From positions 1 to 64,000 of the forward strand of contig JAFPWG010000010.1 of assembly GCA_017395045.1 (NCBI GenBank): a DNA stretch of 64,000 nt, given 5' to 3'. Made by a program: the position numbers and the translations under genes. The notes beneath the pieces are model-generated. The model saw only the letters and a list, made by a program, of their open reading frames with translations. It did no database searches and was not told where the DNA came from. The stretch comes from Bacteroidales bacterium. GTDB lineage: Bacteria; Bacteroidota; Bacteroidia; Bacteroidales; UBA932. Positions 45,958-63,658 of this stretch are shown in pieces; position 1 is the first letter of the stretch, and every line of letters starts with the position of its first letter.

Positions 45958-46371
45958 ATGAGGGGACTGCTGGTCTTTTTGCTTGTCTTCCTTCCGGTGC
46001 TCTCCTTTGCCCAGCGGTCGGCAGATCCCGTGCGTGAAAACTTGTTTCCGGGATTTGGCGTTGGTTCCCTGCATCAAGGCGACACCCTCGGCGCCAGGAA
46101 GTTCAAGACGGCAGACATCGTGGGGGTATCCCTTATCGGAGTCGGCACCCTTGGCATTGCTGCAACCGCCATCGAGAGAGACCTGCTCTGGGCAATGGTC
46201 GGCGAGACCACCAAGGCCGATTATTACATCTGCGGCGGAATCGCCGTGGCGGGGATTGCAACGCTGGTGACTTCCCGCATCCTGGCCGTGAAGAAGGCTA
46301 AGAATTATGACGTGACGCCGGTCGCTTACTCTCAGGGCAGCGGAGGGTTGTCCCTTAAAATCAATTTCTGA
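45958..46371 (+). CDS. Small secreted/membrane protein of unknown function
   Basis: 137 residues from MRGLLVFLLVFLPVLSFAQ, five bases after the upstream stop; the longer frame is a shadow of the esterase gene. After the signal peptide there are two hydrophobic stretches (IVGVSLIGVGTLGIAAT and YYICGGIAVAGIATLVTS), probably a helical hairpin in the membrane. The C-terminal tail ends in an aromatic (SLKINF). No family is recognised. Its stop overlaps the next ATG (TGATG), so it is translated with the esterase that follows. Confidence 0.7.
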   Translation: MRGLLVFLLVFLPVLSFAQRSADPVRENLFPGFGVGSLHQGDTLGARKFKTADIVGVSLIGVGTLGIAATAIERDLLWAMVGETTKADYYICGGIAVAGIATLVTSRILAVKKAKNYDVTPVAYSQGSGGLSLKINF

Positions 46372-47318
46372 TGAAACGCCTGCTTCTGCTCATACTTGCT
46401 GCCGCTTCGCTTATGACTGGCTGCGTCGCCTTCCTGGAATCCCAGGAAAAGTTGAAGGAAACGCAGTCGCTGATTAACGTGGATTTCAAGGGAACCGTCC
46501 AAAGGGACATCGCGTATGCCGACGGGCTCACTTTCGATTTGTATCTGCCCGTGGATTGCGGCAAACCGGCCGCAAATACGCTTTTCTTCTTCATCCACGG
46601 CGGAGGCTGGACCAGCGGTTCAAAGGCCGACGGAGAGGCTTGGAGCCGGTTTTTTGCGGCAAGCGGTTATACGGCAGCGACGCTGGATTATTCCCTGCAG
46701 ACCGGCAAAGCGACGCCTTCCATCGACCAAATGATTGATGAGATTCACCAGTGCATCCGGAAGGTCATCGCGGTCTCTGCCGAAAACGGCGTTTCTCTTA
46801 CTCAGATGGTGGTGAACGGCTATTCTGCCGGAGCCTGCCTTGCGCTGCTGTACAGCTACCGGGAAGAGCCAGAACTTCCGGTTCGTTTTGTCATCACGGA
46901 GTCGGCCCCGGTGAGTTTCGACCCTTCCACATGGGAGGAAGGCGTACACTGGTACGTGAACTTCACCACAGGTGTGGACGGCTCCGACAAGGGCGCTGCA
47001 GCCTGGCTCTCCAAGATGTCCGGCCAGGATGTGACGCCCAGGATGATTGCCGACGGAAGCGCCAGGCCAGTATGGGAAAAGATTTCTCCCGTTGACCAAC
47101 TGAAGGCCGGTGCTCCGCCCACGCTGCTGGGCTACGGCCTTACGGACGGGGTGGTTCCCAGGGGGCATAAAGATTTAATAATGAGTAAACTGAAAGAAAC
47201 AGGGACGCATTATGATTACGTCCCCTTCCCTAATTCCGGCCATGCATTGGCCTATGATATCGATTGTCAGAAAGCGTTCCTGGACTTAGTCGCTCTCTAC
47301 CGCAATCTTTTCCTATAA
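46371..47318 (+). CDS. Alpha/beta-hydrolase lipoprotein, BD-FAE-like
   Basis: 315 residues with lipobox (LMTGC, cysteine at 18). It belongs to the HGGG-type esterases: oxyanion HGGGW, nucleophile S152 in GYSAGA, acid in GLTDGV and H in NSGHAL. The early FDLYLPVD motif is typical of carboxylesterase/feruloyl-type hydrolases of the BD-FAE group. It is likely periplasmic. The 3' end overlaps the convergent esterase gene by 6 bases. Confidence 0.82.
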   Translation: MKRLLLLILAAASLMTGCVAFLESQEKLKETQSLINVDFKGTVQRDIAYADGLTFDLYLPVDCGKPAANTLFFFIHGGGWTSGSKADGEAWSRFFAASGYTAATLDYSLQTGKATPSIDQMIDEIHQCIRKVIAVSAENGVSLTQMVVNGYSAGACLALLYSYREEPELPVRFVITESAPVSFDPSTWEEGVHWYVNFTTGVDGSDKGAAAWLSKMSGQDVTPRMIADGSARPVWEKISPVDQLKAGAPPTLLGYGLTDGVVPRGHKDLIMSKLKETGTHYDYVPFPNSGHALAYDIDCQKAFLDLVALYRNLFL

Positions 47319-48293
47319 CGGCATATACTTGTCCAGATACTCCTCCACGGCTTCCATCCATTGTCTTTGGATGGCGCTGTCGTTCTGCAGTCCATGGCCG
47401 GAGTGAGGCATTTCAAAGTATTTGAAATCCACGCCGTTAGCCTCTAAAGCCGATTTCAGGCGAAGGGATGCCGGAAAGGCCTGTACCCGGTCATGCGTGC
47501 CATATGCAACCACGGTCGGCGGAGCATCCGGCGTAATCCATTCCATGGCCGAGATGGGTTTCATTGTTTCCAAATAAGAACCGTCCTTGATACTGTCGAC
47601 AGAGAGCATTTCTCCGCGCATAGCGCTGAAAATGCCCACGGCGGCGAGATAACTCTCTTCGCTCTCGCCCGTCATCCCATAGCAGCCCCAGTCCTCTTTG
47701 TAAAAGCAGGACGGACCCACGGCGCCGAAAGTAAACACTACGGGGACAGGAGCTTCTTTGGCATCGCGATAGGCGTAAATCATGGCCAGGGCATGCCCCG
47801 CAGATCCGCCGGCAATGGTCATCTTGTCGATGGGGTAACCCGCCGCCTCGGCCGCCTTGATTACTTCCGGGATAGCCGCCTTGATTTCGTTGGACTGGGA
47901 ATAGACGCTTGCACCGTTGGATGCTCCGTTCAGCTCCTTTGCCAGGGTGTAATTGATTCCGGCGGCCACGTAGCCCTTCTTGCAGAGCCAGGCAAGCATC
48001 TTTACATCGCCACTTTTATCGCCGGTAGTGAAGCCGCCGGCATGCAGGTAAACAGCCAGTCCATATGCGGGTCTGGAGTTGTCCTTCGGCAAGTATAGAT
48101 CGAACTTCTGCTCATCGCCTTCTCCATAGGGGAGGTCCGTCTTCAGCGTGCCGATCTCATCGCTCCATTCTACGGCGTAATCCTTCGCCCAGGACGGCTG
48201 GATGGCGAATTTGGAAACGATGCCCACTACAAAAGCGGCGAGAAACACAAGGATTCCAAGCCATACGGGAATGATTCTCTGCCTTTTACTCAT
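47313..48293 (-). CDS. Membrane-anchored alpha/beta-hydrolase (family C, copy 1)
   Basis: 326 residues. An N-terminal helix (about 9-28) without a cleavage site suggests an inner-membrane anchor with the enzyme in the periplasm. Motifs: FDLYLPKD, oxyanion HAGG (84-87, in place of HGGG), nucleophile S164 in GGSAGH, acid in GTHDRV and H in SGHGL. The C-terminus YLDKYMPL is shared with the paralogue at 55887 (YLNRYMPL). Its ATG overlaps the stop of a 44-residue membrane peptide gene (ATGA). Confidence 0.82.
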   Translation of the reverse strand: MSKRQRIIPVWLGILVFLAAFVVGIVSKFAIQPSWAKDYAVEWSDEIGTLKTDLPYGEGDEQKFDLYLPKDNSRPAYGLAVYLHAGGFTTGDKSGDVKMLAWLCKKGYVAAGINYTLAKELNGASNGASVYSQSNEIKAAIPEVIKAAEAAGYPIDKMTIAGGSAGHALAMIYAYRDAKEAPVPVVFTFGAVGPSCFYKEDWGCYGMTGESEESYLAAVGIFSAMRGEMLSVDSIKDGSYLETMKPISAMEWITPDAPPTVVAYGTHDRVQAFPASLRLKSALEANGVDFKYFEMPHSGHGLQNDSAIQRQWMEAVEEYLDKYMPL

Positions 48294-48424
48294 AGTATAT
48301 TCCCTCCGAATAAAGTTCCGCCCAGAAGGGCATTCATAACGGCCCTTACCGCGAGCCGCCCAAGCACGAATGCAACGACGACAATCATTGAAATGACAAG
48401 AGCCCGTTTCGTTTTAAGTTTCAT
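48290..48424 (-). CDS. 44-residue single-helix membrane peptide upstream of family C esterase
   Basis: Minus-strand frame MKLKTKRALVISMIVVVAFV... ending FGGNIL: a basic N-terminus, one hydrophobic helix of about 20 residues and a short GG-containing tail. It starts 10 bases after the upstream esterase stop, and its stop overlaps the downstream ATG, so it is well placed for translational coupling. A similar 40-residue peptide precedes the paralogous esterase at 55887. No family is known to me. It could anchor or chaperone the esterase, or be a coupling leader peptide. Confidence 0.7.
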   Translation of the reverse strand: MKLKTKRALVISMIVVVAFVLGRLAVRAVMNALLGGTLFGGNIL

Positions 48425-48434
48425 ACCTTTCTTG

Positions 48435-49364
48435 TTATAATGCTATTCTCTGATCCTGATACGCAGAATTCCTTAAAAGCTCCGGGGATTCTCCCATGAA
48501 CGCCATAGCCGCGACTTCGTCTCCCTGAAGCTGCCACCGGAACCACGCCATCACATAACCTCCGGCATATGACATCATCATGCCGTGGTCCATTCCAGTG
48601 CGACGGGCCATTACCTTCGGCGAGGAAATCTTGTCATACTGTTTCACAAGTTCTTCCAATGGAATTACAGTCTCTGTTTCGAACTCGCCTTCCGTGCCGC
48701 AGAGAATCATGATGGGGCACTCGACCAGCGAGGAATCGTAGGTGTAATCCGTGACCAGGGAGGTCATATACTCGCTCACCGGAGAAAGTGGTGCGGCGGC
48801 CTTGATCATCTTACCCTCTTCGTATTTGGTGAGCACATTGAATACGCCGGCTCCACCTTGAGAGAAACCCGTAAGGCCGATATTCTCCGTGTCAATCCTG
48901 TTATAGAATACGCTGCCGGAATCCCGGTTCATGTCCAGCATGTTGTTCAGCACCTTGACGGTGGTCTTTCCGGTCCCCGTCCCTTTGTCCTGTGTTCCCA
49001 CCACAATGAATCCCCAGGAGGCATACATCCGGAACACCGGCTCGTATTTGGTGACCTTGCCGCCGGTTCCGTTCATGACCAGAATCATAGGATACTTTTT
49101 GCCGGAAGTCTCCATCTCTTCCGGATAAAAGACAGACACTTTGCTGATGGGCTTCTCTTCTTTGAAGGTGCATCTCTTGACTTTCAAGTCTCCTCCAAGA
49201 AGATACTTGGATTCCAGGTCTCCGCCGGTTTCAATCTTCTGGTTGTACCCTTCTTTGACATCCTTTTTGATGGAGTCCTGGTACACATACACAACCCCAA
49301 GAAGGGCGGCCAATACGAATGGCGTGGCAACAATACCAAGTACAACTTTTTTCCAAGTTTTCAT
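48435..49364 (-). CDS. Chlorophyllase-like alpha/beta-hydrolase (family A, copy 2)
   Basis: 309 residues from MKTWKKVV, two bases after the upstream stop; a start ten codons earlier would overlap that gene. An N-terminal hydrophobic helix (about 7-27) is probably a membrane anchor. Motifs: VMNGTGGKV oxyanion region, nucleophile S168 in GFSQGG, acid near CGTEGEFE and H in GMDHGM. It is a paralogue of the lipoprotein at 45047. Both copies are probably periplasmic esterases acting on related substrates. Confidence 0.82.
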   Translation of the reverse strand: MKTWKKVVLGIVATPFVLAALLGVVYVYQDSIKKDVKEGYNQKIETGGDLESKYLLGGDLKVKRCTFKEEKPISKVSVFYPEEMETSGKKYPMILVMNGTGGKVTKYEPVFRMYASWGFIVVGTQDKGTGTGKTTVKVLNNMLDMNRDSGSVFYNRIDTENIGLTGFSQGGAGVFNVLTKYEEGKMIKAAAPLSPVSEYMTSLVTDYTYDSSLVECPIMILCGTEGEFETETVIPLEELVKQYDKISSPKVMARRTGMDHGMMMSYAGGYVMAWFRWQLQGDEVAAMAFMGESPELLRNSAYQDQRIAL

Positions 49365-49366
49365 GC

Positions 49367-50833
49367 TTATATCCTTTCTTTGATTTCTTTCCACGTTTCA
49401 GACAGAGACGCATCATTGAATGAAGCGACCATCTCGTCGATTTCTTTTACTGAATGATTCCCGGCATATCTGCCCAGTTCTTCCACCACCTCGTCCTGAT
49501 AGACCTTCAGCGATCCATAAGCAGCATCGTCTATACCCTCGTGGGCAGGGAGTTGGACGCTGCGGCCAGCATAACGCTCAAGAAGAAGGCGCACCTTTCC
49601 AGGGCGAAGCAGTTCCGTCGAAGCCAGTGAACGCGTGACCATATCCTTCAGATACGGAATCATATCCACCGTCCCCTGAGGATTGCCGTTGTTGTGGCTG
49701 CTGTAACTTTCGACGGGGCCGTCGTCCGACACGTTGATATTGAAAGGTCTAGCGGCATCGTATGATACCAGGGTTGTTTCTCCCACAGGAACGGGTTTGA
49801 AACTCTCGACGCGGGTAAGCGAAGGATCCAGGAGCTCATCCAGTGCCTTCCCCAGGGTGCCGGGGTTGGAAGCATCCAGCCGGGTGGAGAATTTCTTTGG
49901 CATACTGTCGCTATTTTTCTCGTAAGTATACTTCCGGGTAGTCTGGTCGATGGGGACCAGGAGGTCTGACGTGCAGTGATAGATGATGAACGGATTGGAA
50001 TAACAGTCGGTAAGGCCGATGGGAGAAAGGGCCGCCCAACGAGCGTAGTCTTCCTTGTCCGGGAAGTTGTCCTGGATGGGTTTGAAAGATCCGGAAACCA
50101 ATCCCGCAAAAGGAAGGGGAATTTCCATTATGGCTTCCATCAAAGCCTGCATCTTCTCCTCGTCGGTTCCTTTCGTCAGTTTTCCGGCGTGTTTCAGCAT
50201 AACCTTCATAATAGAGCCTCCGTTCACTTTATCGGCTGCGTTAAAGTGCTGATAAAAATTGAAATACACATTCTCGATAGGGGCGTTGGCCACGCTGGCA
50301 CAGATACCCATCTGCAGGCCGGCGAGCATCATGGACATATAGCCGCCGGCGCTGCCACCAACCATCAGGATACGCAGCGGGTCAAAATCCGGAGTGTGGC
50401 GGACGGTGTACAGGGCAGCGTTGTTGAACACCAGATCGTCATCGGTAAGCTGGCCGTTGTAGGCGTTGTCAAAGTCCGTGGGAGAAACCACCGCCCATCC
50501 TTCGGCAAGATATTGGCGGAGTTCCAGGGCGTCGTCCTTCATCTCGTAGTGGGGAATGTATACAACAGGCATGGGCTTTTTAGCCTTCTGCGGGATAAAC
50601 ATATGCACCGGACGCACGGACACCGTGTCGCCTTTGGTGATGAAGGGGATTTCTACGCGTCGCTGCTCAATGTCCACCAGCGGAGGAAGGGAGTCGGTGA
50701 GCTGGGCCTGCATCGCCAGGAGTTTGGCCATATCGGCGCCTTTTTGCGCATTGGCGTTCTGGGCATTCGAGCCGCCGCCACAAGCGGATAGCAGTGTGGA
50801 GACAAGGGCGAGACTGAGAAGGATTCGTTTCAT
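49367..50833 (-). CDS. Alpha/beta-hydrolase lipoprotein, large form
   Basis: 488 residues with lipobox (LLSAC, cysteine at 18) and a G/N/Q-rich linker. The hydrolase core carries VYIPHYEMKD, nucleophile S161 in GGSAGG, and IYHCTSDLLVP, where the aspartate is the likely acid. A C-terminal region of about 150 residues (from about 340) has no recognised fold. It is the first gene of the leftward operon (esterase D, family A copy 2, small peptide, family C), with a promoter at 50853-50860. Confidence 0.78.
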   Translation of the reverse strand: MKRILLSLALVSTLLSACGGGSNAQNANAQKGADMAKLLAMQAQLTDSLPPLVDIEQRRVEIPFITKGDTVSVRPVHMFIPQKAKKPMPVVYIPHYEMKDDALELRQYLAEGWAVVSPTDFDNAYNGQLTDDDLVFNNAALYTVRHTPDFDPLRILMVGGSAGGYMSMMLAGLQMGICASVANAPIENVYFNFYQHFNAADKVNGGSIMKVMLKHAGKLTKGTDEEKMQALMEAIMEIPLPFAGLVSGSFKPIQDNFPDKEDYARWAALSPIGLTDCYSNPFIIYHCTSDLLVPIDQTTRKYTYEKNSDSMPKKFSTRLDASNPGTLGKALDELLDPSLTRVESFKPVPVGETTLVSYDAARPFNINVSDDGPVESYSSHNNGNPQGTVDMIPYLKDMVTRSLASTELLRPGKVRLLLERYAGRSVQLPAHEGIDDAAYGSLKVYQDEVVEELGRYAGNHSVKEIDEMVASFNDASLSETWKEIKERI

Positions 50834-51012: not shown

Positions 51013-53415
51013 ATGAAAACAAGACTTGCCATATTTGCTTTTCTGATGCTTGCCGCCTGTACACCCAAGGAGGATTATGCGGCCGGATGGAACTTCTGGT
51101 CCGATGCCGCACCGACTCCCGTGACGGTTACTCTCCCCCACGACGCCATGCAGACGGAGATTCGCCGTGCCGATGCGCCAAGCGGCTTTGGCAGTGCCTA
51201 TTTCGAGACCGGTGTCTATCACTACGAAAAGCATTTGCAGGTACCTGCGGCCTGGTTGGACAAGCATGTTGTCCTTCACTTTGGCGGTGTATACCGCAAT
51301 ACTACGGTTTCCGTGAACGGGGTTGAGGCCGGGAAGCATGCATATGGCTTCACGCCCTTCGACGTATGCCTGGACGGACTGCTTGTCAGGGGAGATAATG
51401 TCATCCGGGTGAATGTGGACAATTCCGAGGCCCCGAACATCCGCTGGTACAGCGGAGCCGGAATCTATCGGCCCGTCCATCTGACTGTGCAGGATAAGAT
51501 TCATATTAAGGATGTCAGGATTGAGACGCTGTCTGTTGTTCCTGCAAGAATCTCGGTGAAAACAGCCCACAACGGTGAAACTGTCCGCGTCAGCATCTAT
51601 GATGGGGAACGCTTGATCACCAAGGCCGAAGGTGGCAATGTGGAGATGGATATTCCGGATGCCATGCTTTGGAGCGCCGGGCATCCACACCTCTATACTG
51701 CAAAAGTGGAACTCCTGAGTGGAGGGAAAGTAAAAGACACGGCCCGGCAGGAATTCGGTATCCGAACCCTTGAATGGGACCGTGAAGGCTTCCGCGTTAA
51801 CGGAGAAAACGTGCTTCTGGCAGGATGCGGACTGCATCACGACAACGGTATCCTGGGTGCGGCAGAATATGAGGATGCCGCTTTCAGACGCATCTCAAAA
51901 CTGAAAGAAATGGGCTTCAACGCCATCCGCTCGGCCCATAATCCTCTCTCTGAGGAGATGCTCCGTGCCTGTGACCGGCTGGGAATGTATGTAATGGATG
52001 AACTGTACGACGGCTGGTTCGCCAGTAAAATGAAATATGATTACCACTTGGATTTCCCCAATCATTATCAGGAAGACCTGGAGGCGATGGTCCGAAAAGA
52101 CTGGAACCATCCGTCCGTTATCATGTATTCCATCGGCAATGAACTCACAGAGCCGGCCCTTCCTGGAGGAATGCAGGTTGCCTCTCAGATGATTGACAGA
52201 ATACACGAATTGGACAGTACAAGGCCCGTCACCTGCGGTATCAACCTCAGCATCCTGTCCGATGCCTACCGCAACCAGGATAAGCCGGAGCAATCGGCCG
52301 CCACCATGGACCGTCTTATCCAAATGCTGATGCGGCCGATGGATCCCGGTGTTTCCAGCTTGGATTTCAACGAGGCCAATGCCCAGAACAATGCCTCCGG
52401 GAACGAGGCGCTTAAGAGCGCCGAGGTGGATGGCTTCGTGAGTCCCTTCCTGGATATGCTGGACATTGCGGGGTATAACTACGGAGAACCCCGCTACGCA
52501 CTGGACAAGGAAATGCATCCGGACCGTTTGATAGTGGGAAGCGAAACCATGATTACCAACTTGCATCGCAACTGGAACCTGGAAAAAAGCCTCCCGAACG
52601 TAATCGGCGACTTCTGCTGGACCGGCTGGGACTACATCGGCGAAACCGGCGCCGGCGCCTGGCGCTATGGCGTATCGTCCCGTTTTGCTCAGCCTTACCC
52701 ATGGCTTCTGGGGAACTTCGGCGCCTTTGACATCCTTGGCAATCCCGAAGGGGAGGCCTTCCTGGCCAAAACCGTTTTCTCGGATGAGCCGATGGAACCT
52801 TATATATGCGTCCGTCCGGTGCGGGAGGATGTTCCTTTCCGTTCTTCCTGGCGACTCACCAATTCCATCCCCAGCTGGAGCTGGAAGGGCTGCGAAGGCA
52901 TCAAAGCGACGGTGGAAGTCATCACCAATGCACCAAAGGCGGAGCTATTTGTCAATGGCCGTTCTTTAGGTGTAAAGGAGAGCGAAGGCAATATGGCTAT
53001 TTTTGAACTGTCGTACGAGCCCGGCACGCTGGAAGCGTATGCTATATATGATGATGACGAACGCACCTATGCGCGCATGGAATCGGCCCGCGGCGCCTTG
53101 CAATTGAAACTGCAAACCGAAAAACAGCAGTATATTCCAGGCGAACTCATTTATGTGAATGTCGATATTGTTGGAGAGAACGGAGTAACGGAATCCATGG
53201 CCGATGAGGTGCTTACCTGCACGGTGGAAGGCGGTGAACTCCTAGGCTTTGGAAGCGCCTGTCCCACACCGGACGGCTACTATTTCCGAGATGGCCGCTA
53301 TCCCAGCCATTACGGGAAAGCGCAGGCCATCATAAGGGGCACCCAACAAGGAGTCATTAAAGTGATAATAAATGGAGAAATGCTTGATAGTAAAACAATT
53401 AAGATATTAATATGA
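51013..53415 (+). CDS. GH2 beta-galactosidase/beta-glucuronidase-like lipoprotein
   Basis: 800 residues with lipobox (MLAAC, cysteine at 16). Domain order: GH2 sugar-binding jelly roll (about 25-165), immunoglobulin-like domain, TIM barrel, then DUF4982-type and further beta domains. The acid/base is E377 in YSIGNELTEP and the nucleophile is E511 in VGSETM. The specificity among beta-galactosidase, beta-glucuronidase and beta-mannosidase cannot be fixed; the family has all. The stop overlaps the following GH3 start (ATGA). Confidence 0.88.
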   Translation: MKTRLAIFAFLMLAACTPKEDYAAGWNFWSDAAPTPVTVTLPHDAMQTEIRRADAPSGFGSAYFETGVYHYEKHLQVPAAWLDKHVVLHFGGVYRNTTVSVNGVEAGKHAYGFTPFDVCLDGLLVRGDNVIRVNVDNSEAPNIRWYSGAGIYRPVHLTVQDKIHIKDVRIETLSVVPARISVKTAHNGETVRVSIYDGERLITKAEGGNVEMDIPDAMLWSAGHPHLYTAKVELLSGGKVKDTARQEFGIRTLEWDREGFRVNGENVLLAGCGLHHDNGILGAAEYEDAAFRRISKLKEMGFNAIRSAHNPLSEEMLRACDRLGMYVMDELYDGWFASKMKYDYHLDFPNHYQEDLEAMVRKDWNHPSVIMYSIGNELTEPALPGGMQVASQMIDRIHELDSTRPVTCGINLSILSDAYRNQDKPEQSAATMDRLIQMLMRPMDPGVSSLDFNEANAQNNASGNEALKSAEVDGFVSPFLDMLDIAGYNYGEPRYALDKEMHPDRLIVGSETMITNLHRNWNLEKSLPNVIGDFCWTGWDYIGETGAGAWRYGVSSRFAQPYPWLLGNFGAFDILGNPEGEAFLAKTVFSDEPMEPYICVRPVREDVPFRSSWRLTNSIPSWSWKGCEGIKATVEVITNAPKAELFVNGRSLGVKESEGNMAIFELSYEPGTLEAYAIYDDDERTYARMESARGALQLKLQTEKQQYIPGELIYVNVDIVGENGVTESMADEVLTCTVEGGELLGFGSACPTPDGYYFRDGRYPSHYGKAQAIIRGTQQGVIKVIINGEMLDSKTIKILI

Positions 53416-55754
53416 AAAACGTACTTGTAGCTCTTGCGGCCCTCGCCGCTTGCACTGTGGCATTTGCCCAGCCCCGCCTTAGGGAAGACAACATTGACGA
53501 AATCCTGAAAGCCCTCACCGTAGAGGAAAAGGTGCAGCTTCTGGTGGGCGGCGCCCAGCCCATCATGATTGGCGGTATCCCTACCGGCGTCGCCGCCGAA
53601 GTTCCCGGTGCTGCCGGAAATACCCGCCCGGTGGAGCGGCTGGGCATTCCCGGAACCGTCCTTGCCGACGGCCCTGCAGGCGTGCGCATCAGCCCAACCC
53701 GAGACGGAGACAGCAAGACCTATTATGCGACGGCCTTCCCCGTGGGAACCCTTCTGGCCAGCTCCTGGGATACGGATCTTGTGAAAGATGTGACTTCAGC
53801 TATGGGCAACGAGGTGTTGGAGTATGGGGTTGATGTCCTTCTTGCTCCTGGCATGAACATTCATAGAAACCCGCTTTGCGGCCGGAACTTCGAATATTTT
53901 TCGGAGGATCCGCTGCTTTCCGGAAAGATGGGCGCCGCCTACATCAATGGCATCCAAAGCCAGGGAGTTGGCGTGTCCATGAAGCATTATGCCGGGAACA
54001 ATCAGGAAACCAACCGCAATGAGAATGATGCTCGCGTGAGCCAGAGAGCACTTCGTGAAATCTACCTCAAGAACTATGAGATTGCCGTAAAGGAGGCGCA
54101 TCCTTGGACGGTAATGAGTTCCTACAACAAGGTGAACGGCACCTACAGCCAACAGAGTTACGATCTTCTTACCACCATCCTCCGCGAAGAATGGGGATTT
54201 GATGGCATTGTAATGACGGACTGGGGGAACAAAGACAATACCGTAGCGGCCGTCAAGGCTGGCAACGACCTGATGGAAGGAGGCAGCCCGGAGGAGATAG
54301 ACAAGATTATGACCGGGGTAAAAGATGGCCGGATCAGCCAGGAAGAGCTCGACCGCAATGTGCGCCGTGTGCTGGAATACATTGTTAGGACACCCCGATT
54401 CAAAGGATACAAGTTCTCAAACAGCCCTGACCTCAAGGCCCACGCAGAAGTTGCCCGCAGGGCTGCCGCCGAATCCATTGTCCTGCTCCGCAACGAGGGC
54501 CACACCCTTCCGCTCAAGGGGAATGAGAAAATCGCCCTTTACGGCGTTTCTTCCGTCGATTTCGTGGCCGGCGGTACCGGCAGCGGCTCGGTGAACAAGG
54601 CTTATGTTGTTGAGATGCCCCAGGCGCTGGAAGAAGCCGGTTTTACGCTGGAGGAGAATCTGAAGAACTTCTATGCCCTGCATCGTGACTATGAGCGGGC
54701 AAAGGGGAAACTGTCCTCCACCGGCAATTCCCTCATGGACCTTCTTCTTGCCTTTTTCGGAGGCAGCAAACTCCCTGAGACGGCACTTCCTGAAGGCACT
54801 TTCGGCGGCAACGCCAAGAATACCGATGCGGCCATCGTTGTCCTTGGACGCAATGCCGGCGAAGGCTTTGACCGCAAGTTGAAGGATGATTTCAAGCTTA
54901 CGGCGGTGGAGATGGAACTCCTGCAGAACGTGAGCACCGCCTTCCACCAGGAAGGGAAGAAAGTGATTGTGGTCCTGAACATCGGCGGTGTCATTGAGAC
55001 GGCATCCTGGAAGGATATGGCCGATGCTATCGTCCTCCCCTGGAGCCCCGGACAGGAAGGCGCAAGAGCCGTTGCCGATGTGCTCACCGGTAAAGTGAAT
55101 CCTTCCGGCAAACTGCCGATGACCTTCCCGCTGGACTACTTCGACGTTCCGTCGGCCCGCAATTTCCCCTATGATTATGACGACTCGAAGAAGAATGACG
55201 ATTCTGCAAACGCACTGGCAGCCCTTTTCGGTGGAACAGAGAAGGCGAAGAGAAATGTGGACTTCACGGAATACGAAGAGGATATCTGGGTGGGCTACCG
55301 CCACTACGACACCAAGGGAATTGAGGTCTCCTATCCATTCGGCTTTGGCCTCAGCTATACCACTTTTGTCTATTCCAAACCCGTAGTGAAAGCCGTGAAA
55401 GACGGATTTACGGCCAGCATCACCGTCACCAACACCGGCTCCATGGCAGGTAAAGAAGCCGTACAGCTCTATGTTTCCGCACCTGCCGGCTCCCTGGACA
55501 AGCCCGCCCGTGAACTCAAGGCTTTTGCCAAAACAAAGGAACTGAAGCCCGGGGAGAGCCAGACGCTGACCATGACCATGTCGGCCTATGATTTGGCATC
55601 CTTCAATGAAGCCTTGAGCCAGTGGGAGACCGCGGCAGGCAGTTACAAGGTCCTATTCGGCGCTTCCGTGGAGGATATCCGCTGCACGGCTTCCTACAAG
55701 CAGGCTAAGGCCCTGTCCTGGAGCGTTAACAATGTCCTTGCACCTCAAAAGTAA
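53412..55754 (+). CDS. GH3 beta-glucosidase (tandem copy 1)
   Basis: 780 residues with a signal peptide (MKNVLVALAALAACTVAFAQ). GH3 barrel with nucleophile D270 in VMTDWGNKD, alpha/beta sandwich from about 370, and a FnIII-like C-terminus. A PA14-free layout with an insert around 420-460 is shared with the copy at 56840. The two are clear paralogues over the full length (GAPQ/GAVK after LLVGGA, PGMNIHRNPLCGRNFEYFSE, VEDIRCTA). It is translationally coupled to GH2. It probably acts in the periplasm. Confidence 0.9.
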   Translation: MKNVLVALAALAACTVAFAQPRLREDNIDEILKALTVEEKVQLLVGGAQPIMIGGIPTGVAAEVPGAAGNTRPVERLGIPGTVLADGPAGVRISPTRDGDSKTYYATAFPVGTLLASSWDTDLVKDVTSAMGNEVLEYGVDVLLAPGMNIHRNPLCGRNFEYFSEDPLLSGKMGAAYINGIQSQGVGVSMKHYAGNNQETNRNENDARVSQRALREIYLKNYEIAVKEAHPWTVMSSYNKVNGTYSQQSYDLLTTILREEWGFDGIVMTDWGNKDNTVAAVKAGNDLMEGGSPEEIDKIMTGVKDGRISQEELDRNVRRVLEYIVRTPRFKGYKFSNSPDLKAHAEVARRAAAESIVLLRNEGHTLPLKGNEKIALYGVSSVDFVAGGTGSGSVNKAYVVEMPQALEEAGFTLEENLKNFYALHRDYERAKGKLSSTGNSLMDLLLAFFGGSKLPETALPEGTFGGNAKNTDAAIVVLGRNAGEGFDRKLKDDFKLTAVEMELLQNVSTAFHQEGKKVIVVLNIGGVIETASWKDMADAIVLPWSPGQEGARAVADVLTGKVNPSGKLPMTFPLDYFDVPSARNFPYDYDDSKKNDDSANALAALFGGTEKAKRNVDFTEYEEDIWVGYRHYDTKGIEVSYPFGFGLSYTTFVYSKPVVKAVKDGFTASITVTNTGSMAGKEAVQLYVSAPAGSLDKPARELKAFAKTKELKPGESQTLTMTMSAYDLASFNEALSQWETAAGSYKVLFGASVEDIRCTASYKQAKALSWSVNNVLAPQK

Positions 55755-55760
55755 TTGAGT

Positions 55761-55883
55761 ATGAAAAAAGAAACAAAAAAACGGCTCATAACGATAGCCA
55801 TACTGATTGTCGCCGGAGCCCTTGTAGGGTTCGTCGTGCAAGCATCGGTAATTAATCTCATTGTAGGAGGCAAGTGGTTCTAG
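55761..55883 (+). CDS. 40-residue single-helix membrane peptide upstream of family C esterase
   Basis: The frame MKKETKKRLITIAILIVAGA... ends IVGGKWF: a lysine-rich N-terminus, one hydrophobic helix and a GG-containing tail, as in the 44-residue peptide at 48290. It begins 6 bases after the GH3 stop and ends 3 bases before the next ATG, so it fills the gap exactly. The repeat occurrence next to a paralogous esterase is the main reason to regard it as real. Function unknown. Confidence 0.7.
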   Translation: MKKETKKRLITIAILIVAGALVGFVVQASVINLIVGGKWF

Positions 55884-55886
55884 GGT

Positions 55887-56843
55887 ATGAAAAAGACACT
55901 TTGGGTACTGCTCTATATAGCAGTGTTTATAGGATCGGCCGTCCTCTTCGGGCCGATGATTTACAAAGCCAGGGGTGCTGATGAAAGTTCCCGTGTCAAA
56001 TGGAATGATTCCGTCGGGACCATCATGACAGATTTCTCCTACGGTGAGAAGCCGGGCAATAAGTTTGACTTGTACCTTCCTGCTGACAAGTCCCGGAGCC
56101 ATTACGGCCTTGTGGGTTATTTCCATGGCGGAGGTTTTCACGGAGGAGACAAAGAAGGCGATGCCGGGATTCTCAAATGGCTCGCATCCAGAGGCTATGT
56201 GGGAGCAGGCATCAATTACACCCTGAACGTGGACGGAAACCCATCCACGAGTATCCTCAATATGACGCTGGAGATAAAGGAAGGGATGAATGCTGCCGTG
56301 GAAAAGGCCGAAGAGCTGGGTTATCATATTGATAAAGTGGCAACGGGCGGCGGCTCTGCCGGTTCCACCCTTTCTATGGTTTATGCTTTCCGTGATGCAC
56401 CTGATGCGCCTGTTCCCGTTGCATTTACCTTCCAGGCGGCGGGTCCCACGCTCACCGACCCTCGGGAATTCGGCCAGTGTAAGGGTTTTGAGACACAGGA
56501 AGATAGGAGATCGGCCCTCAAGTTTTTCAATGTTTTCCTGGGACTGGACGTCAAGGAAGAAGACTTGGATTCCGGCGAGTGGATGGAGAAAATCAAACCA
56601 GTATCTCCTGCCTTGCAGATAAATGAGAACACGGTACCCATTCTTTTCTCCCACGGCTGCGACGATCATATCGTCATCTATAAGCAGGCCGAGCACCTTC
56701 TGGAAGCACTGGATAAACATCAAGTTCCCTATACTTTTATCCAGTTTGACCGCAGCGGTCACAATATGGGCTGGCAGCCCAAAAAACAGCAGGAGTTCTT
56801 CGACTCCCTGAAGGTTTATCTTAACCGGTATATGCCCTTATGA
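55887..56843 (+). CDS. Membrane-anchored alpha/beta-hydrolase (family C, copy 2)
   Basis: 318 residues with an N-terminal helix (about 4-22). Motifs: FDLYLPAD, oxyanion HGGG (80-83), nucleophile S157 in GGGSAGS, acid in HGCDDHIV and H in SGHNMG. The C-terminus is YLNRYMPL. It is a paralogue of 47313..48293 and, unlike it, keeps HGGG. It lies between the two GH3 copies and its stop overlaps the next start (ATGA). A role as glycan or glycoside deacylase is inferred from position. Confidence 0.83.
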   Translation: MKKTLWVLLYIAVFIGSAVLFGPMIYKARGADESSRVKWNDSVGTIMTDFSYGEKPGNKFDLYLPADKSRSHYGLVGYFHGGGFHGGDKEGDAGILKWLASRGYVGAGINYTLNVDGNPSTSILNMTLEIKEGMNAAVEKAEELGYHIDKVATGGGSAGSTLSMVYAFRDAPDAPVPVAFTFQAAGPTLTDPREFGQCKGFETQEDRRSALKFFNVFLGLDVKEEDLDSGEWMEKIKPVSPALQINENTVPILFSHGCDDHIVIYKQAEHLLEALDKHQVPYTFIQFDRSGHNMGWQPKKQQEFFDSLKVYLNRYMPL

Positions 56844-59158
56844 AGAGATTATTGATATCCTCAATTCTTATGGCGACAGTCCTGTCACTGTCAGCCCAAC
56901 CTGTTCTGCGTCCGGATAGCATCGATGAAGTCCTCAAGGCGATGACTCTGGAGGAGAAAGTACAGCTGCTTGTCGGCGGCGCCGTGAAAACCTACAAGGA
57001 CGGTGTGCCCACGGGGACATCGGCCAGCGTTCCGGGTGCAGCTGGCTGTACCAAGCCGATTGAAAGGCTGGGCATTCCGGCGGTTATTCTTTCAGACGGT
57101 CCTGCAGGGGTTCATATCGACGCCACCCGCGAAGGAACGGACAAGACTTTCTACGCCACGGGATTCCCGGTGGGAACGCTCCTCGCGAGTTCCTGGGACA
57201 CGGATCTGGTACGTGAGGCGACTGCAGCGATAGGCAGGGAGGCTCGGGAATACGGCATCGACGTAATGCTTTCTCCGGGAATGAACATTCACCGCAACCC
57301 TCTCTGCGGCAGGAACTTCGAGTATTTCTCCGAGGATCCCGTATTGTCCGGTAAAATGGGAGCGGCATACGTGAAAGGCCTTCAGGATGAGAATGTTGGC
57401 ACTTCCGTGAAGCATTTTGCAGCCAACAATCAGGAATCGAACCGATTCCAAGGCGAATCCCGCGTGAGCCAGCGTGCCCTGAGGGAGATATACCTGAGGA
57501 ACTTTGAGATAACTGTCAAGGAAGCACAGCCTTGGACGGTGATGGCTTCCTATAACCGCCTCAACGGTCCTTACACGCAGCAGAACTATGAGCTCCTGAC
57601 CACCGTTCTCCGCGACGAGTGGGGCTTCAAGGGGCTAGTGATGACCGACTGGGGGATGAAGGACGGTACCGTGGAAGCCGTGAAGGCAGGGACAGACCTG
57701 ATGGAGCCGGGTGAAGAGGAAGAGATGAACCGAATCCTCGCTGCCGTAAAGGATGGCCGCATTTCCATGGAAGAAATAGACCGCAATGCCCGTCGCGTTC
57801 TGGAACTTGTGGTGAAAACCAACACCTTCCATGGATACAAGTATTCCGACAATCCGGACCTCAAAGCCAACGCAGCAATTGCCCGCCGGGTGGCCGGTGA
57901 GTCCATCGTGATGCTTAGGAACGAACAGGCCCTGCCGCTTGCCGAAGGTACAAAAGTAGCCCTGTTCGGCATGTCTTCCGTGGATTTCGTGGCTGGCGGA
58001 ACCGGTTCCGGCAATGTGAACAAAGCATATGTGGTGCCGATGGACCAGGCGCTGGAAGAGGACGGTTTCCTTGTAGATGAAGATCTGAAAAACTACTATA
58101 ACGAGTATAAACAGCACCAGGAAGCCACCTGGGCGCTGGCTTTTGCCGGAAATCCTATGGGACTGGCTGTTCTGCGCTTCAAGGGCAGCAAGATTCCGGA
58201 GCCCGTTCTTCCCGAAACCTGTTTCCCCGCCAAGGCAAAGTCCAATGATGTGGCTGTGGTGGTCATCGGCCGAAATGCCGGTGAAGTGCTGGACCGTACG
58301 CTCGCGGACGACTTTGAGCTGACGGAGACTGAACGCAAATTGCTCCGCAGCGTAGCCGATGCCTTCCATGCGGAAGGAAAGAAGGTCGTGGTTGTTCTCA
58401 ACGTTGGAGGGGTCATTGAAACCGCTTCGTGGAAGAGTTATGCCGATGCCATTGTCCTTCCCTGGAGCCCCGGTCAGGAAGGATCCCGCGCCGTTGCCGA
58501 TATACTCTGCGGTAAAATCAACCCGTCCGGCAAGCTGCCGATGAGCTTCCCGGTGAGCTATTTCGATGTGCCCTCCGCTCTAAGTTTCCCTTACGAGTAC
58601 AATAAGGACGGCAAGCTTGGGGTGATGGAAATCCTGAACGGAGTGCAGTCCGATGAAAAGAACGTGGGCTGGACCTCGTACGATGAAGGCATCTATGTGG
58701 GCTATCGGCACTATACGACCATAGGCAAAGAAGTTTCCTTCCCCTTCGGCTTCGGCCTCAGCTATACCACCTTTGCTTACTCCAAGCCTGTTGTCAAGGC
58801 CGGAAAGGATGGTTTCACTGCCAGCATTATGGTGACCAATACCGGCTCCGTAGCCGGAAAAGAAGCCGTACAGCTTTACGTCTCTGCTCCTGCGGGAGGA
58901 ATGGACAAACCCGTCCGTGAGCTCAAGGCCTTTGCCAAGACGAGAGAACTCCTGCCCGGCGAAAGCCAGACGCTCTCTTTCAGCGTCTCCGCCTACGACC
59001 TGGCCTCCTTCAACGAAGCCCAAAGCCGCTGGGAAACCGCGGCCGGAAGCTATCAGATTCTGTTCGGTGCTTCCGTAGAAGACATCCGCTGCACGGCAAA
59101 ATACAAACAGGCCAAGGCACTGTCTTGGGCAGTAAACAATGTGTTGAAATTGCAGTAA
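56840..59158 (+). CDS. GH3 beta-glucosidase (tandem copy 2)
   Basis: 772 residues with a signal peptide (MKRLLISSILMATVLSLSAQ). The nucleophile is D270 in VMTDWGMKD, at the same position as in copy 1. The full-length similarity to copy 1, with the small peptide and esterase between, points to an internal duplication. The largest differences are in the 410-450 insert and around 590-620 (KLGVMEIL against KNDDSANALA). It may act on a different linkage or aglycone. Confidence 0.9.
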   Translation: MKRLLISSILMATVLSLSAQPVLRPDSIDEVLKAMTLEEKVQLLVGGAVKTYKDGVPTGTSASVPGAAGCTKPIERLGIPAVILSDGPAGVHIDATREGTDKTFYATGFPVGTLLASSWDTDLVREATAAIGREAREYGIDVMLSPGMNIHRNPLCGRNFEYFSEDPVLSGKMGAAYVKGLQDENVGTSVKHFAANNQESNRFQGESRVSQRALREIYLRNFEITVKEAQPWTVMASYNRLNGPYTQQNYELLTTVLRDEWGFKGLVMTDWGMKDGTVEAVKAGTDLMEPGEEEEMNRILAAVKDGRISMEEIDRNARRVLELVVKTNTFHGYKYSDNPDLKANAAIARRVAGESIVMLRNEQALPLAEGTKVALFGMSSVDFVAGGTGSGNVNKAYVVPMDQALEEDGFLVDEDLKNYYNEYKQHQEATWALAFAGNPMGLAVLRFKGSKIPEPVLPETCFPAKAKSNDVAVVVIGRNAGEVLDRTLADDFELTETERKLLRSVADAFHAEGKKVVVVLNVGGVIETASWKSYADAIVLPWSPGQEGSRAVADILCGKINPSGKLPMSFPVSYFDVPSALSFPYEYNKDGKLGVMEILNGVQSDEKNVGWTSYDEGIYVGYRHYTTIGKEVSFPFGFGLSYTTFAYSKPVVKAGKDGFTASIMVTNTGSVAGKEAVQLYVSAPAGGMDKPVRELKAFAKTRELLPGESQTLSFSVSAYDLASFNEAQSRWETAAGSYQILFGASVEDIRCTAKYKQAKALSWAVNNVLKLQ

Positions 59159-60856: not shown

Positions 60857-63658
60857 ATGAAAAAAACACTGATATTTTTGGCTCTTGCAGCAACTTGTCT
60901 GGCGGCTCAAGCGCAGAACCTCGGCCAGTTCGAATGGAAACTTGTTCCGCCGGCAGAGGCAGGAATGACACAGGCCGATCTGGATGCGCTTCGCGCCAAT
61001 GTCCAAAGCCAGATTGACGCCCACACCATTGCGGGCGCTGTCACAGCCATCGTCAAGGACGGCAATCTCGTCTGGTACGAGGCGCAGGGAGAAAGCGACC
61101 CCACGACCGGAAAGATAATGGAGAAAGACGCCATTTTCACTTTGATGTCTTCTTCAAAAATCATGGCTGGTATTGCTGCGCTGCAACTTGTGGAGCAAGG
61201 GAAAATGGGTCTGGAAGACCCTGTGAGCAAATACATTCCCGAGCTGGCCGACATGAAGGTATATGTCAAGGAGGGCGAGATTATTCCCGCCGATAAGCCG
61301 ATCACCGTCAAGCATCTGCTCACCCATACGGCCGGCCTGATGACGGCAACGAATCTTGGCTTTCTCCGCAACCAGATCCCTTCTGAGGAAGGCGATCGGC
61401 TCCAAGATGCCGTTCCCCGTTTTGCACAGGCTACCCTGGATTTCCAGCCCGGTACCCAGTGGAGCTATTCGCCGCTTCACGGGATTGACGTAGCGGCAAG
61501 AATTATCGAAATCGTTTCAGGAGAGCCCTATCAGCAGTATGTCCAAAAGCATATTTTTGAGCCTCTCGGCATGACGGAAACCTGGTTTACGGTTCCTGAA
61601 AGTGAGCGGGAGAGAGTGGTTCCTCTTGTCAAGTATGAGAATGGTAATTGGGTCAAACAGCCAAAAATGTTCGGTGATTACGGAGAAGCGCAGACAAGCT
61701 ATTTCAGTGCTTCCGGCGGTCTTCTTTCCACGGCGAAGGATTATACGCTCCTGGAGGTTGCCCTCTTGAACGGCGGATTTCTCAATGGGAAGCGCATCCT
61801 CTCGGAAGAGAGCGTCAAGTTGATGGGCTCCAACCTGGTGGGAGACCTTTACGCCAAGTTCATGCCTGTCATTACCGATGGATATGGCTTCGGTATCACT
61901 GTCCGTGTTGCGGAAGACGAATCTAAGTGCCACGGCGTAGGAAAGGGCGCCTTCAACTGGAATGGAGCATACGGAACGGACTCCTGGGCCGATCCGGCAA
62001 ACGGAATCGCCGCCGCCTATTTCATAGCCCATTCCGACGGCCCGCGTGAACCGGTCAACGATTTTCAGGAAACTTTGTATGAATCTATGGTTCAGCAGGC
62101 TTCAGGCATCCCTTCCGATGTCCGCATGACCACCTTGGAATTCAAGGAAAACAGCAATGGGGAAAAGTTGCAGATGGATTATTTCCGTGCTGCTGGCGAC
62201 ACCCAGAAGCGCCCCACCATCATCTTTTCTTTTGGTGGCGGCTGGGCCGGTGGCGACAGGCTTATCTACCGTGAAGTGGCACCCCGATATGTCCGTCACG
62301 GCATCAATGTGGCCGCAATCGACTATACACTCACCCTGAAGGGACAGAAGAACCTTCCGGACTCCACCCTCTTTGGCCCGCAGTACTCTAACGCCATTAT
62401 GACTTCGGTTGCAGATCTCTACGATGCTACGCGCTATCTGCTGGACCACCAGGATGAACTGGGAGTCCGGGAGGATAAAATCATCCTGCAGGGCGGCAGT
62501 GCCGGTGCTACCAATTCTGTTATGGCAGAGTATTGGCTCTGTAACGAAGCATCCCTTGCGACAGCGCGCTTGCCGAAGGGATTCAACTATGCAGGCGTAA
62601 TTCCCGCGGCCGGATCCGTGTGGAAAACCGGCCTGGAAGACCCCGAGTGGAAGAGTATGCCCTGCCCGCATATGTTCATGCACGGCACGGCTGACTGGGT
62701 GGTTCCGTTCTGGGATACACCAATCCCGGCGAGCGACTTCAAGGCCTTCAGCCCCAAAACAGTGGCTGAACTCCTTCGCAAACGTGGCGCATGCGTTGAG
62801 ACTTTCTTTGTAGAAGAAGCCGACCATATGATGGCCGCCGCCCCCATTTTCGATTTCCCTTATGGAGGCTATACAGTGGACCAGACCGAGCATATGCTGG
62901 ACTTCATCGACCGCGTGGTGCTTAAAGGAGAAAAAGTGCAGATAGACTATTATGAGAAAGACTACGATACGCCCCGCAACTTCATGGTTGTGCTGGGAAT
63001 GCTCGCCGCGCAGGAGAATACTCCGGATTTGAACAATCTGAATAACGAAGATCTGCAGGAGGGGCAGCATATGGCCGAGCCAGCGCGCAAATCTCAAGCA
63101 TATACTCTTCCTCAAGTGGGTACGGGCGCTATTGTAACAAAGGTTGTCAAAGGCTATACCATCAGCCGCGATTCTTCCTTCCAAGGGTCCCAGGCGGTTT
63201 ATATTCACAATGGCGCGAAGGAACCTTTCCTGGACGAACTGGTGAAAAAGGGTTACATTACCGTGCTGGTAAATACTTCTGCTTCTGGACTTAAGGCAGT
63301 CGCTACCTATATGGCAAAGAATGCGGCCAAGTGGAATGCCGATGCTTCCCGCATTGCGGTCGGCGGCAAGCAGGCCCTTGCAGCTGCCGCAGGAGCCAAG
63401 AACATTGCCGGTGTCATTTCATCGGCGGAGCCTCTGAAGAATCTCTCCAAAGTAACGGTTCCGGTGCTTTATTATGCCGAAAGTGGGGCCGACCTGTCGG
63501 CCTGGGACAAGCGGGAAGAAAACCAGCAGGTCTTCATAGTTTACTCGGCAAAAGACGCCACACCTGCATCCGCAGAAGCTTCCCGTATCCGCGAAGCTTT
63601 CCTGGACCGGTGCGTCCGCAATGGTGAAGTCTTTGCCGTGAGAATCGACGAAAGATAA
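60857..63658 (+). CDS. Three-part protein: beta-lactamase-family hydrolase, alpha/beta-hydrolase, degenerate alpha/beta-hydrolase
   Basis: 933 residues with a signal peptide (MKKTLIFLALAATCLAAQAQ). Residues about 30-400 are a class C beta-lactamase/esterase-type domain with SxxK at S98-K101 and Y204 in YSP, where YxN is usual. Residues about 430-690 are an alpha/beta-hydrolase with FGGGW, S548 in GGSAG, D in GTADWVV and H in EADHMM. Residues about 750-930 repeat the fold weakly, but the nucleophile elbow reads VGGKQA (K838 for serine) and no histidine motif is evident. It is probably a multifunctional periplasmic esterase. Confidence 0.82.
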   Translation: MKKTLIFLALAATCLAAQAQNLGQFEWKLVPPAEAGMTQADLDALRANVQSQIDAHTIAGAVTAIVKDGNLVWYEAQGESDPTTGKIMEKDAIFTLMSSSKIMAGIAALQLVEQGKMGLEDPVSKYIPELADMKVYVKEGEIIPADKPITVKHLLTHTAGLMTATNLGFLRNQIPSEEGDRLQDAVPRFAQATLDFQPGTQWSYSPLHGIDVAARIIEIVSGEPYQQYVQKHIFEPLGMTETWFTVPESERERVVPLVKYENGNWVKQPKMFGDYGEAQTSYFSASGGLLSTAKDYTLLEVALLNGGFLNGKRILSEESVKLMGSNLVGDLYAKFMPVITDGYGFGITVRVAEDESKCHGVGKGAFNWNGAYGTDSWADPANGIAAAYFIAHSDGPREPVNDFQETLYESMVQQASGIPSDVRMTTLEFKENSNGEKLQMDYFRAAGDTQKRPTIIFSFGGGWAGGDRLIYREVAPRYVRHGINVAAIDYTLTLKGQKNLPDSTLFGPQYSNAIMTSVADLYDATRYLLDHQDELGVREDKIILQGGSAGATNSVMAEYWLCNEASLATARLPKGFNYAGVIPAAGSVWKTGLEDPEWKSMPCPHMFMHGTADWVVPFWDTPIPASDFKAFSPKTVAELLRKRGACVETFFVEEADHMMAAAPIFDFPYGGYTVDQTEHMLDFIDRVVLKGEKVQIDYYEKDYDTPRNFMVVLGMLAAQENTPDLNNLNNEDLQEGQHMAEPARKSQAYTLPQVGTGAIVTKVVKGYTISRDSSFQGSQAVYIHNGAKEPFLDELVKKGYITVLVNTSASGLKAVATYMAKNAAKWNADASRIAVGGKQALAAAAGAKNIAGVISSAEPLKNLSKVTVPVLYYAESGADLSAWDKREENQQVFIVYSAKDATPASAEASRIREAFLDRCVRNGEVFAVRIDER

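Follow-up and report, generated by a model that had tools for sequence, protein, structure and literature searches.

Two short open reading frames in a stretch of Bacteroidales DNA (the window, 64,000 nucleotides in all) each lie immediately before an esterase gene. Do these frames encode a protein, and does that protein work with the esterase that follows it? An initial annotation made from the letters alone had proposed a conserved partner of the esterase, serving as its anchor, assembly factor or activity modulator.

Two peptide-esterase pairs in the window

The two pairs and a third esterase in the window are as follows.

48290..48424 (-): micropeptide 1, 44 aa; basic start, one hydrophobic stretch, GRLAVRAVMNALLGGTLFGGNIL end; profile E 1.5e-22
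48303..48307 (-): GGAGG in codons 40-41 of micropeptide 1, at the usual ribosome-site distance from the esterase ATG
47313..48293 (-): esterase 1, 326 aa; BD-FAE alpha/beta hydrolase with an N-terminal hydrophobic anchor; PF20434, E 7.6e-17
55761..55883 (+): micropeptide 2, 40 aa from its ATG; divergent, GGKWF end; BLASTP against peptide 1; profile E 6.5e-18, micropeptide 2 itself being among the seven rows of the profile
55887..56843 (+): esterase 2, 318 aa; BD-FAE alpha/beta hydrolase with an N-terminal hydrophobic anchor; PF20434, E 1.1e-17
46371..47318 (+): third BD-FAE esterase, lipoprotein-like start, without a micropeptide; an internal contrast, by sequence comparison

Both short frames were found exactly where the initial annotation had placed them, overlapping or 3 bases before esterases of the BD-FAE type. 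At the junction of pair 1, the TGA of the peptide overlaps the esterase ATG at 48293 as ATGA. At that of pair 2, the peptide TAG is followed by GGT and the esterase ATG at 55887, so that the genes share a reading frame and are separated by 3 bases. The micropeptides are 40% identical over 40 columns (BLASTP, E 1e-5, single comparison), and the two esterases 39% over 287 columns. The GG tail ascribed to both peptides is shared only in its upstream GG, peptide 1 ending in GGTLFGGNIL and peptide 2 in GGKWF. Likewise, the two esterases exist as described, and they are joined by the third, which is 31% identical to esterase 1 and carries no peptide.

The third esterase is preceded by a 137-aa frame (45958-46371, +) that overlaps it by one base and matches PF05628 (Borrelia_P13; E 7.3e-8, above cut-off). 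Here a relative of the peptide-bearing esterases is coupled to a small membrane-protein-like gene of another kind.

The peptide accompanies one esterase clade

With esterase 1 as query, genome contigs yielded 11 loci; taxon labels of relatives, here and below, were taken from record titles. The same peptide precedes the esterase in the five loci that keep the start region (L008-L011, L014), ending GGT(L/M)FGGN(F/I)L. Four of the other six start at the end of their contig; L015 is missing its N-terminal part, and L018 shows damage. In L018, around 5956-6453, micropeptide and esterase are both partly deleted, the loss in the micropeptide running into the neighbouring TetR-like gene.

A profile built from seven peptides was searched independently of the esterase. 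In the family of a Lachnospiraceae-labelled genome, 16 of 397 genomes matched at E 4.5e-15 or better. The next-best match (6.6e-4) was a frame of 51 codons that overlies one of 720 codons, which leaves a clear gap after the 16. The esterase lies directly behind the peptide in 15 of these matches, and the contig of the other (G696) ends about 100 bases past the peptide. The 345 Bacteroidota genomes searched gave a match below E 1e-4 in the window's own genome only; two further matches near 1e-3 fall in frames of 160 and 516 codons. The proposed conservation across Bacteroidales has therefore shrunk to a single genome in this set, while the expectation of such frames before homologues elsewhere was borne out in the Lachnospiraceae family, in Clostridial loci and on a Priestia plasmid.

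Searching a 397-genome draw of the same family, with agreement in the genome handles listed, an esterase profile returned 23 genomes at 1e-15. The peptide is present in all 15 genomes with an esterase E below 1e-80. Elsewhere in the draw, the G551 esterase (5e-62) has a different 38-residue hydrophobic frame directly upstream, G606 has no N-terminal esterase match, and G776, G895 and G885 are fragments in which the peptide was not scored. No peptide-like frame was seen before the distant enzymes of G598, G827 and G814.

The class of the Oscillibacter-labelled genome has the esterase in 4 of 341 genomes, that genome included. G1125 and G900 carry it with a 44-residue peptide, and the second esterase of G900, resembling that of G551, has a 37-residue hydrophobic frame in front; in G1022, which has two signal-peptide-like enzymes, the peptide is absent. 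L082 and L085 are the two Clostridial loci that repeat the pair here. Closer to the window, 198 genomes of its order gave only one other genome with an esterase relative, and no peptide there. The esterase occurs in 3 of 151 genomes of the window's genus, and the two besides the window's are cut by contig ends. Plasmids yielded one good esterase relative, in Priestia aryabhattai XT37 (46% identity, same layout), whose peptide is annotated as the hypothetical protein WP_289579091.1. No relative was found in viral_contigs by two degenerate patterns, and phages gave one 28% match, so a virus-borne origin finds no support.

The Priestia esterase (L110, 5959-6948) can open at an overlapping ATGA at 5959, 21 bases before its annotated start (5980). 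The annotated start of this alpha/beta hydrolase is probably 21 bases too late, since 5959 agrees with the relatives.

The main family thus amounts here to 24 copies, 21 in alignment A3 plus L082, L085 and L110. Not scored were L006/L012, L007, L013, L016 and L017, whose peptide region lies beyond a contig end, and L015 for its missing N-terminal part. We found no curated family for the micropeptide in Pfam, NCBIfam or PHROGs (21 members; best E 0.025, 0.0061 and 0.025, respectively), nor was any single family listed for more than two of the 21; assignment to a named small-protein family was rejected accordingly. The micropeptides make up a microprotein family that has no name and keeps to one esterase clade; it is spread across Bacillota and seldom occurs in Bacteroidota.

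A second esterase clade (L071 and L083, a 58% identical pair) has hydrophobic frames of 38 and 37 residues directly upstream, ending LDH(I/L)I. These two short variants share about 27% identity (BLASTP E 0.074) and perhaps form a second, divergent micropeptide family. No further relative of the G551-type clade was found in 153 genomes of the family of G900. The distant enzyme of L080 is overlapped by a 38-codon frame of unlike sequence.

Neighbours of the pair vary

Two more hydrolase genes lie beside pair 1.

48435..49364 (-): second hydrolase, PETase/chlorophyllase-like, upstream of pair 1; PF12740, E 2.7e-8
49367..50833 (-): 488-aa hydrolase adjoining pair 1; PF20434, 28.4 bits (cut-off 26.8); cluster c5

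Gene context was counted in 19 sources (the window and L092-L109), several of whose contigs end near the pair. Relatives of the second hydrolase (cluster c2) are near the pair in 9 of the 19, and a relative of the 488-aa hydrolase adjoins it in L098. In 13, the pair has a TetR-like gene beside it; the four members scanned all match TetR_N, three of them above the cut-off. On the Priestia plasmid, a two-component system and a MacB-like transporter precede the pair, and a hydrolase sharing the Pfam matches of the second hydrolase follows it. Across the 19 sources, the constant members are the peptide and the esterase only; the TetR-like gene and the second hydrolase vary.

We consider it probable, from this constancy and the genome searches, that the peptide acts with the adjoining esterase. 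The alternative that survives best, and which still appears unlikely, is an independent small membrane protein carried on the same transcript, such as a sensor, a transport helper or a component that works with the second hydrolase. The recurrence of the TetR-like gene and the second hydrolase does suggest a regulated multi-part set. Moreover, five loci have an intact peptide next to a damaged esterase, with one stop (L035, L082), a frameshift (L033) or an internal deletion (L027, L085). Some of these may be assembly errors, possibly from draft or metagenome assemblies; with the peptide intact beside an interrupted or shortened esterase, strict dependence is not supported. An independent protein is harder to reconcile with the variation of the other neighbours, and with the result that no strong peptide match stood apart from this esterase among the 397 Lachnospiraceae-family and 345 Bacteroidota genomes, the one at a contig end being uninformative.

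The short frame is under protein-level constraint

Homologous frames of 42-46 codons are present in 23 loci besides pair 2. The stop of the peptide and the start of the esterase overlap as ATGA or GTGA in 23 of the 24 copies, the exception being pair 2 of the window. Codon analysis was carried out on 22 copies, leaving out window copy 2 (too short) and the Priestia copy (found later); two extra codons were removed in L040 and L041, and L027 was padded. The aligned copies gave a pS of 0.754, which is saturated, against a pN of 0.237. Mean identity at codon positions 1, 2 and 3 was 0.63, 0.85 and 0.39, respectively. Along the peptide, pN/pS was 0.51 for residues 2-9, 0.41 for 10-22, 0.227 for 22-38 and 0.068 for 39-44. 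R23, R27, N31, G35, G36, F39, G40, G41 and L44 are invariant in the 22 copies; window copy 2 keeps only G22, N31, G35, G36 and F39 of the core, pair 2 lacking R23, R27 and the last tail. Codon-level conservation had been suggested as a check on the short frames, and it revealed strong protein-level constraint with synonymous sites saturated. Together with the frames before homologues elsewhere, this upholds the idea of a conserved protein partner. On this evidence, the micropeptide frame almost certainly specifies a real translated protein.

The conservation of the tail needs a qualification that had gone unnoticed. GGAGG, likely the ribosome site of the esterase, sits in codons 40-41, and codon 40 is GGA in 20 of the 22 aligned copies. 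It may explain part of the conservation of the tail and its GG. It does not account for F39, N42 or L44, nor for the upstream GG, where all four glycine codons occur.

We also scanned 20 sources (the window, L092-L109 and L110) for long frames preceded by a coupled frame of 35-50 codons with a basic start and a hydrophobic stretch. The scan flagged 16 of 232 long frames, 14 of which are relatives of the window esterases, including the one behind the 37-residue variant of L106. The other two cases were an artefact inside the L094 esterase, which is frameshifted, and a small frame that precedes an unrelated gene in L099. The scan is insensitive, having missed the known small frames of pair 2, L093, L094, L100, L103, L105 and L108.

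Could the frame serve only as a regulatory leader? Translation of the small frame, perhaps stalled at the conserved residues that end it, would then control translation of the esterase, and the peptide would have no job afterwards. The last six codons are indeed the most constrained and hold a GGAGG suiting the esterase start, and the stop and start codons overlap. We regard this reading as quite improbable, since the constraint continues through segment 22-38 with free synonymous change, and since pair 2 lacks both tail and overlap yet keeps the helix and the GG. No conserved RNA structure was detected in the peptide gene and overlap, to which the folding was confined (0 consensus pairs, 162 columns, 18 sequences); an RNA switch in this region was rejected on the same result. 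Given the length of the ribosome exit tunnel, a chain this short would probably not let the helix emerge, which would speak against stalling of the insertion-monitoring kind.

Chance frames or by-products of the esterase ribosome-binding region, with no protein made, are scarcely credible: the GGA at codon 40 is what a ribosome site would require, but this idea is rejected by the codon-level constraint and the frame scan, and it conflicts with the homologous frames in 23 loci, the codon-position signature, the annotation as a protein on the Priestia plasmid, and a loose ribosome-site match (GGAG, AGGA, GAGG or AAGG within 25 bases) before the peptide itself in 20 of 21 cases.

The esterase carries its own hydrophobic start

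Esterases 1 and 2 belong to BD-FAE, with PF20434 scores of 62 and 64.8 bits against a cut-off of 26.8. The catalytic motif of BD-FAE alpha/beta hydrolases consists of a G-x-S-x-G nucleophile elbow, an Asp and a His. G162, G163, S164, A165 and G166, D268 and H300 are invariant in 18 aligned rows, and the best profile matches among solved chains are esterases, e.g., 5ao9 and 7bfn. The larger gene of each pair is thus like other BD-FAE members in its catalytic motif residues; the peptide-bearing clade differs from BD-FAE in general in being, to judge from sequence, membrane-anchored. None of the family descriptions consulted mentions a small partner protein.

Peptide-bearing esterases with a readable start have, by eye, a basic, hydrophobic N-terminal stretch of their own. 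This makes the suggested anchor function of the peptide unlikely, and a simple anchor role was rejected. The starts of eight peptide-less relatives, also classified by eye, were lipoprotein-like (two), signal-peptide-like (two), without an N-terminal helix (two), multi-helix (one) and single-helix (one). L075 and L080 have no family peptide, yet show N-terminal hydrophobic stretches; because of these starts, and because the label needs only two changes on the tree, the tie of the peptide to the anchor type of the esterase is weak.

Conservation was compared between peptide and esterase in 17 of the 24 loci. Mean identity was 0.65 for the peptide, 0.62 for the catalytic domain and 0.36 for the esterase anchor. 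For peptide distances, rho was 0.42 against those of the catalytic domain, a value reached by 0 of 2000 permutations, and 0.20 against those of the anchor, reached by 37 of 2000. Since they track the catalytic domain better than the anchor helix, a contact between peptide and anchor is not specifically supported. Conservation on one helical face gave no signal for positions 8-34 (2723 of 5000 shuffles as high) or 22-36 (2424 of 5000); for positions 8-22, 106 of 5000 shuffles were as high. The peptide is shorter than about 50 aa, and its single helix is put forward from hydropathy alone.

Proposed role of the micropeptide

The explanation we favour, with a probability of about 0.55, is that the peptide is a dedicated membrane microprotein with one helix, produced along with an esterase that is itself membrane-anchored. 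The odds are slightly better than even that it would be a physically bound subunit or assembly factor. Within the roles first proposed, the analysis favours that of an assembly factor or activity modulator.

Once translated, the peptide would keep its basic end in the cytoplasm and place its helix in the cytoplasmic membrane, beside the N-terminal helix of the esterase itself. The GRxxxRxxxN..GGTxFGG segment could then touch the enzyme or the adjacent membrane. Coupled translation would supply the two chains in step. As a small subunit, the peptide might aid assembly or stability of the esterase, or its reach to substrate on the outer side of the membrane, which in Bacteroidales would be the periplasmic side of the cytoplasmic membrane.

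A bolder proposal, which we hold to be very doubtful, is an obligate two-chain esterase that moved between phyla as a unit, the R-R-N-GG segment and tail of the peptide acting as a membrane-embedded lid or guide. If it were true, the peptide would be needed for lipid-like or membrane-bound ester substrates, and what databases treat as a single-chain esterase would have two chains.

The favoured one-helix microprotein represents a membrane family without a name, well conserved and with a single constant neighbour, and hence a testable pair. If the peptide is needed, esterase tests made from the large gene alone would mislead. The family also offers a clean system in which to ask why a peptide of 44 residues keeps to the slow evolutionary pace of the enzyme next to it.

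Comparison with known small proteins

CydX, like AcrZ, is a one-helix small protein bound to a larger membrane protein. To our knowledge, the known partners of AcrZ-like one-helix proteins are transporters and oxidases. The peptide resembles this class (AcrZ: PMC7267776) in its size, its one predicted hydrophobic helix and its one dedicated larger partner, the partner being proposed here. What sets it apart is the kind of partner proposed, an extracytoplasmic hydrolase with only one anchor helix, and the overlap of the genes.

The nearest published parallel found is LspU, a small membrane-active helix encoded upstream of a lipase on the same message. According to that report (PMC12607899), LspU has 21 residues, is encoded ahead of sal1, a lipase gene of Staphylococcus aureus, and had been missed by annotation. 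It is a PSM-like amphipathic exported helix whose stop lies 24 bases before the lipase start, and it is conserved in Staphylococcus, mostly with SAL1-type genes (PMC12607899). A premature stop in LspU left lipase reporter levels unchanged, whereas lipases became trapped at the cell surface when it was expressed constitutively (PMC12607899). Compared by description, the family reported here has 40-46 codons (mostly 44 aa), a long hydrophobic stretch and a conserved tail, unlike the 21-aa amphipathic LspU. Its genes overlap, its esterase is predicted to be anchored, and it occurs in Bacillota and rarely Bacteroidota, in contrast to the 24-base gap and staphylococcal range given for LspU. The literature search found no paper on the micropeptide, supplements aside; small-protein catalogues (PMC11364881) may list it as an entry.

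Probably separate histories of the two pairs

The pairing had been thought to have survived a duplication. In a tree of 31 esterases, esterase 1 falls in a 100/100-supported group with five rows (three Lachnospiraceae-labelled, one Oscillibacter-labelled and one unlabelled), nested in one of eight rows with 98/100 support. Esterase 2 forms a long branch of uncertain placement. All 21 peptide-bearing rows fall on one side of a modestly supported branch (88/75). The tree left out L029 (a contig without the esterase), L035, L082 and the partial relatives L013, L015, L018, L072-L074 and L076, and the tree tool issued a long-branch warning. Because esterase 1 groups with the Clostridial pairs and esterase 2 is distant, the window pairs look separately inherited, and local duplication was rejected as their source. 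Pair 1 was probably transferred from Clostridia or is shared with them; GC content shows no contrast. With the family extending across Bacillota, the finding is somewhat larger than first stated.

One locus from the Lachnospiraceae-family search (L098, 3496-9418) contains GH2/GH3 remnants, a 492-aa hydrolase, the micropeptide, the esterase and the second hydrolase, and looks like a counterpart, from a different phylum, of the cluster in the window. With its relatives of the 488-aa and second hydrolases and its GH2/GH3 remnants like the window flanks, it suggests that a larger cluster may have moved. In the window, paralogous GH3 genes (53412-55754 and 56840-59158, +) lie on either side of pair 2, with a GH2 gene before. 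Further along, at 60857-63655 (+), a 933-aa protein joins a beta-lactamase-fold domain (PF00144) to a BD-FAE domain.
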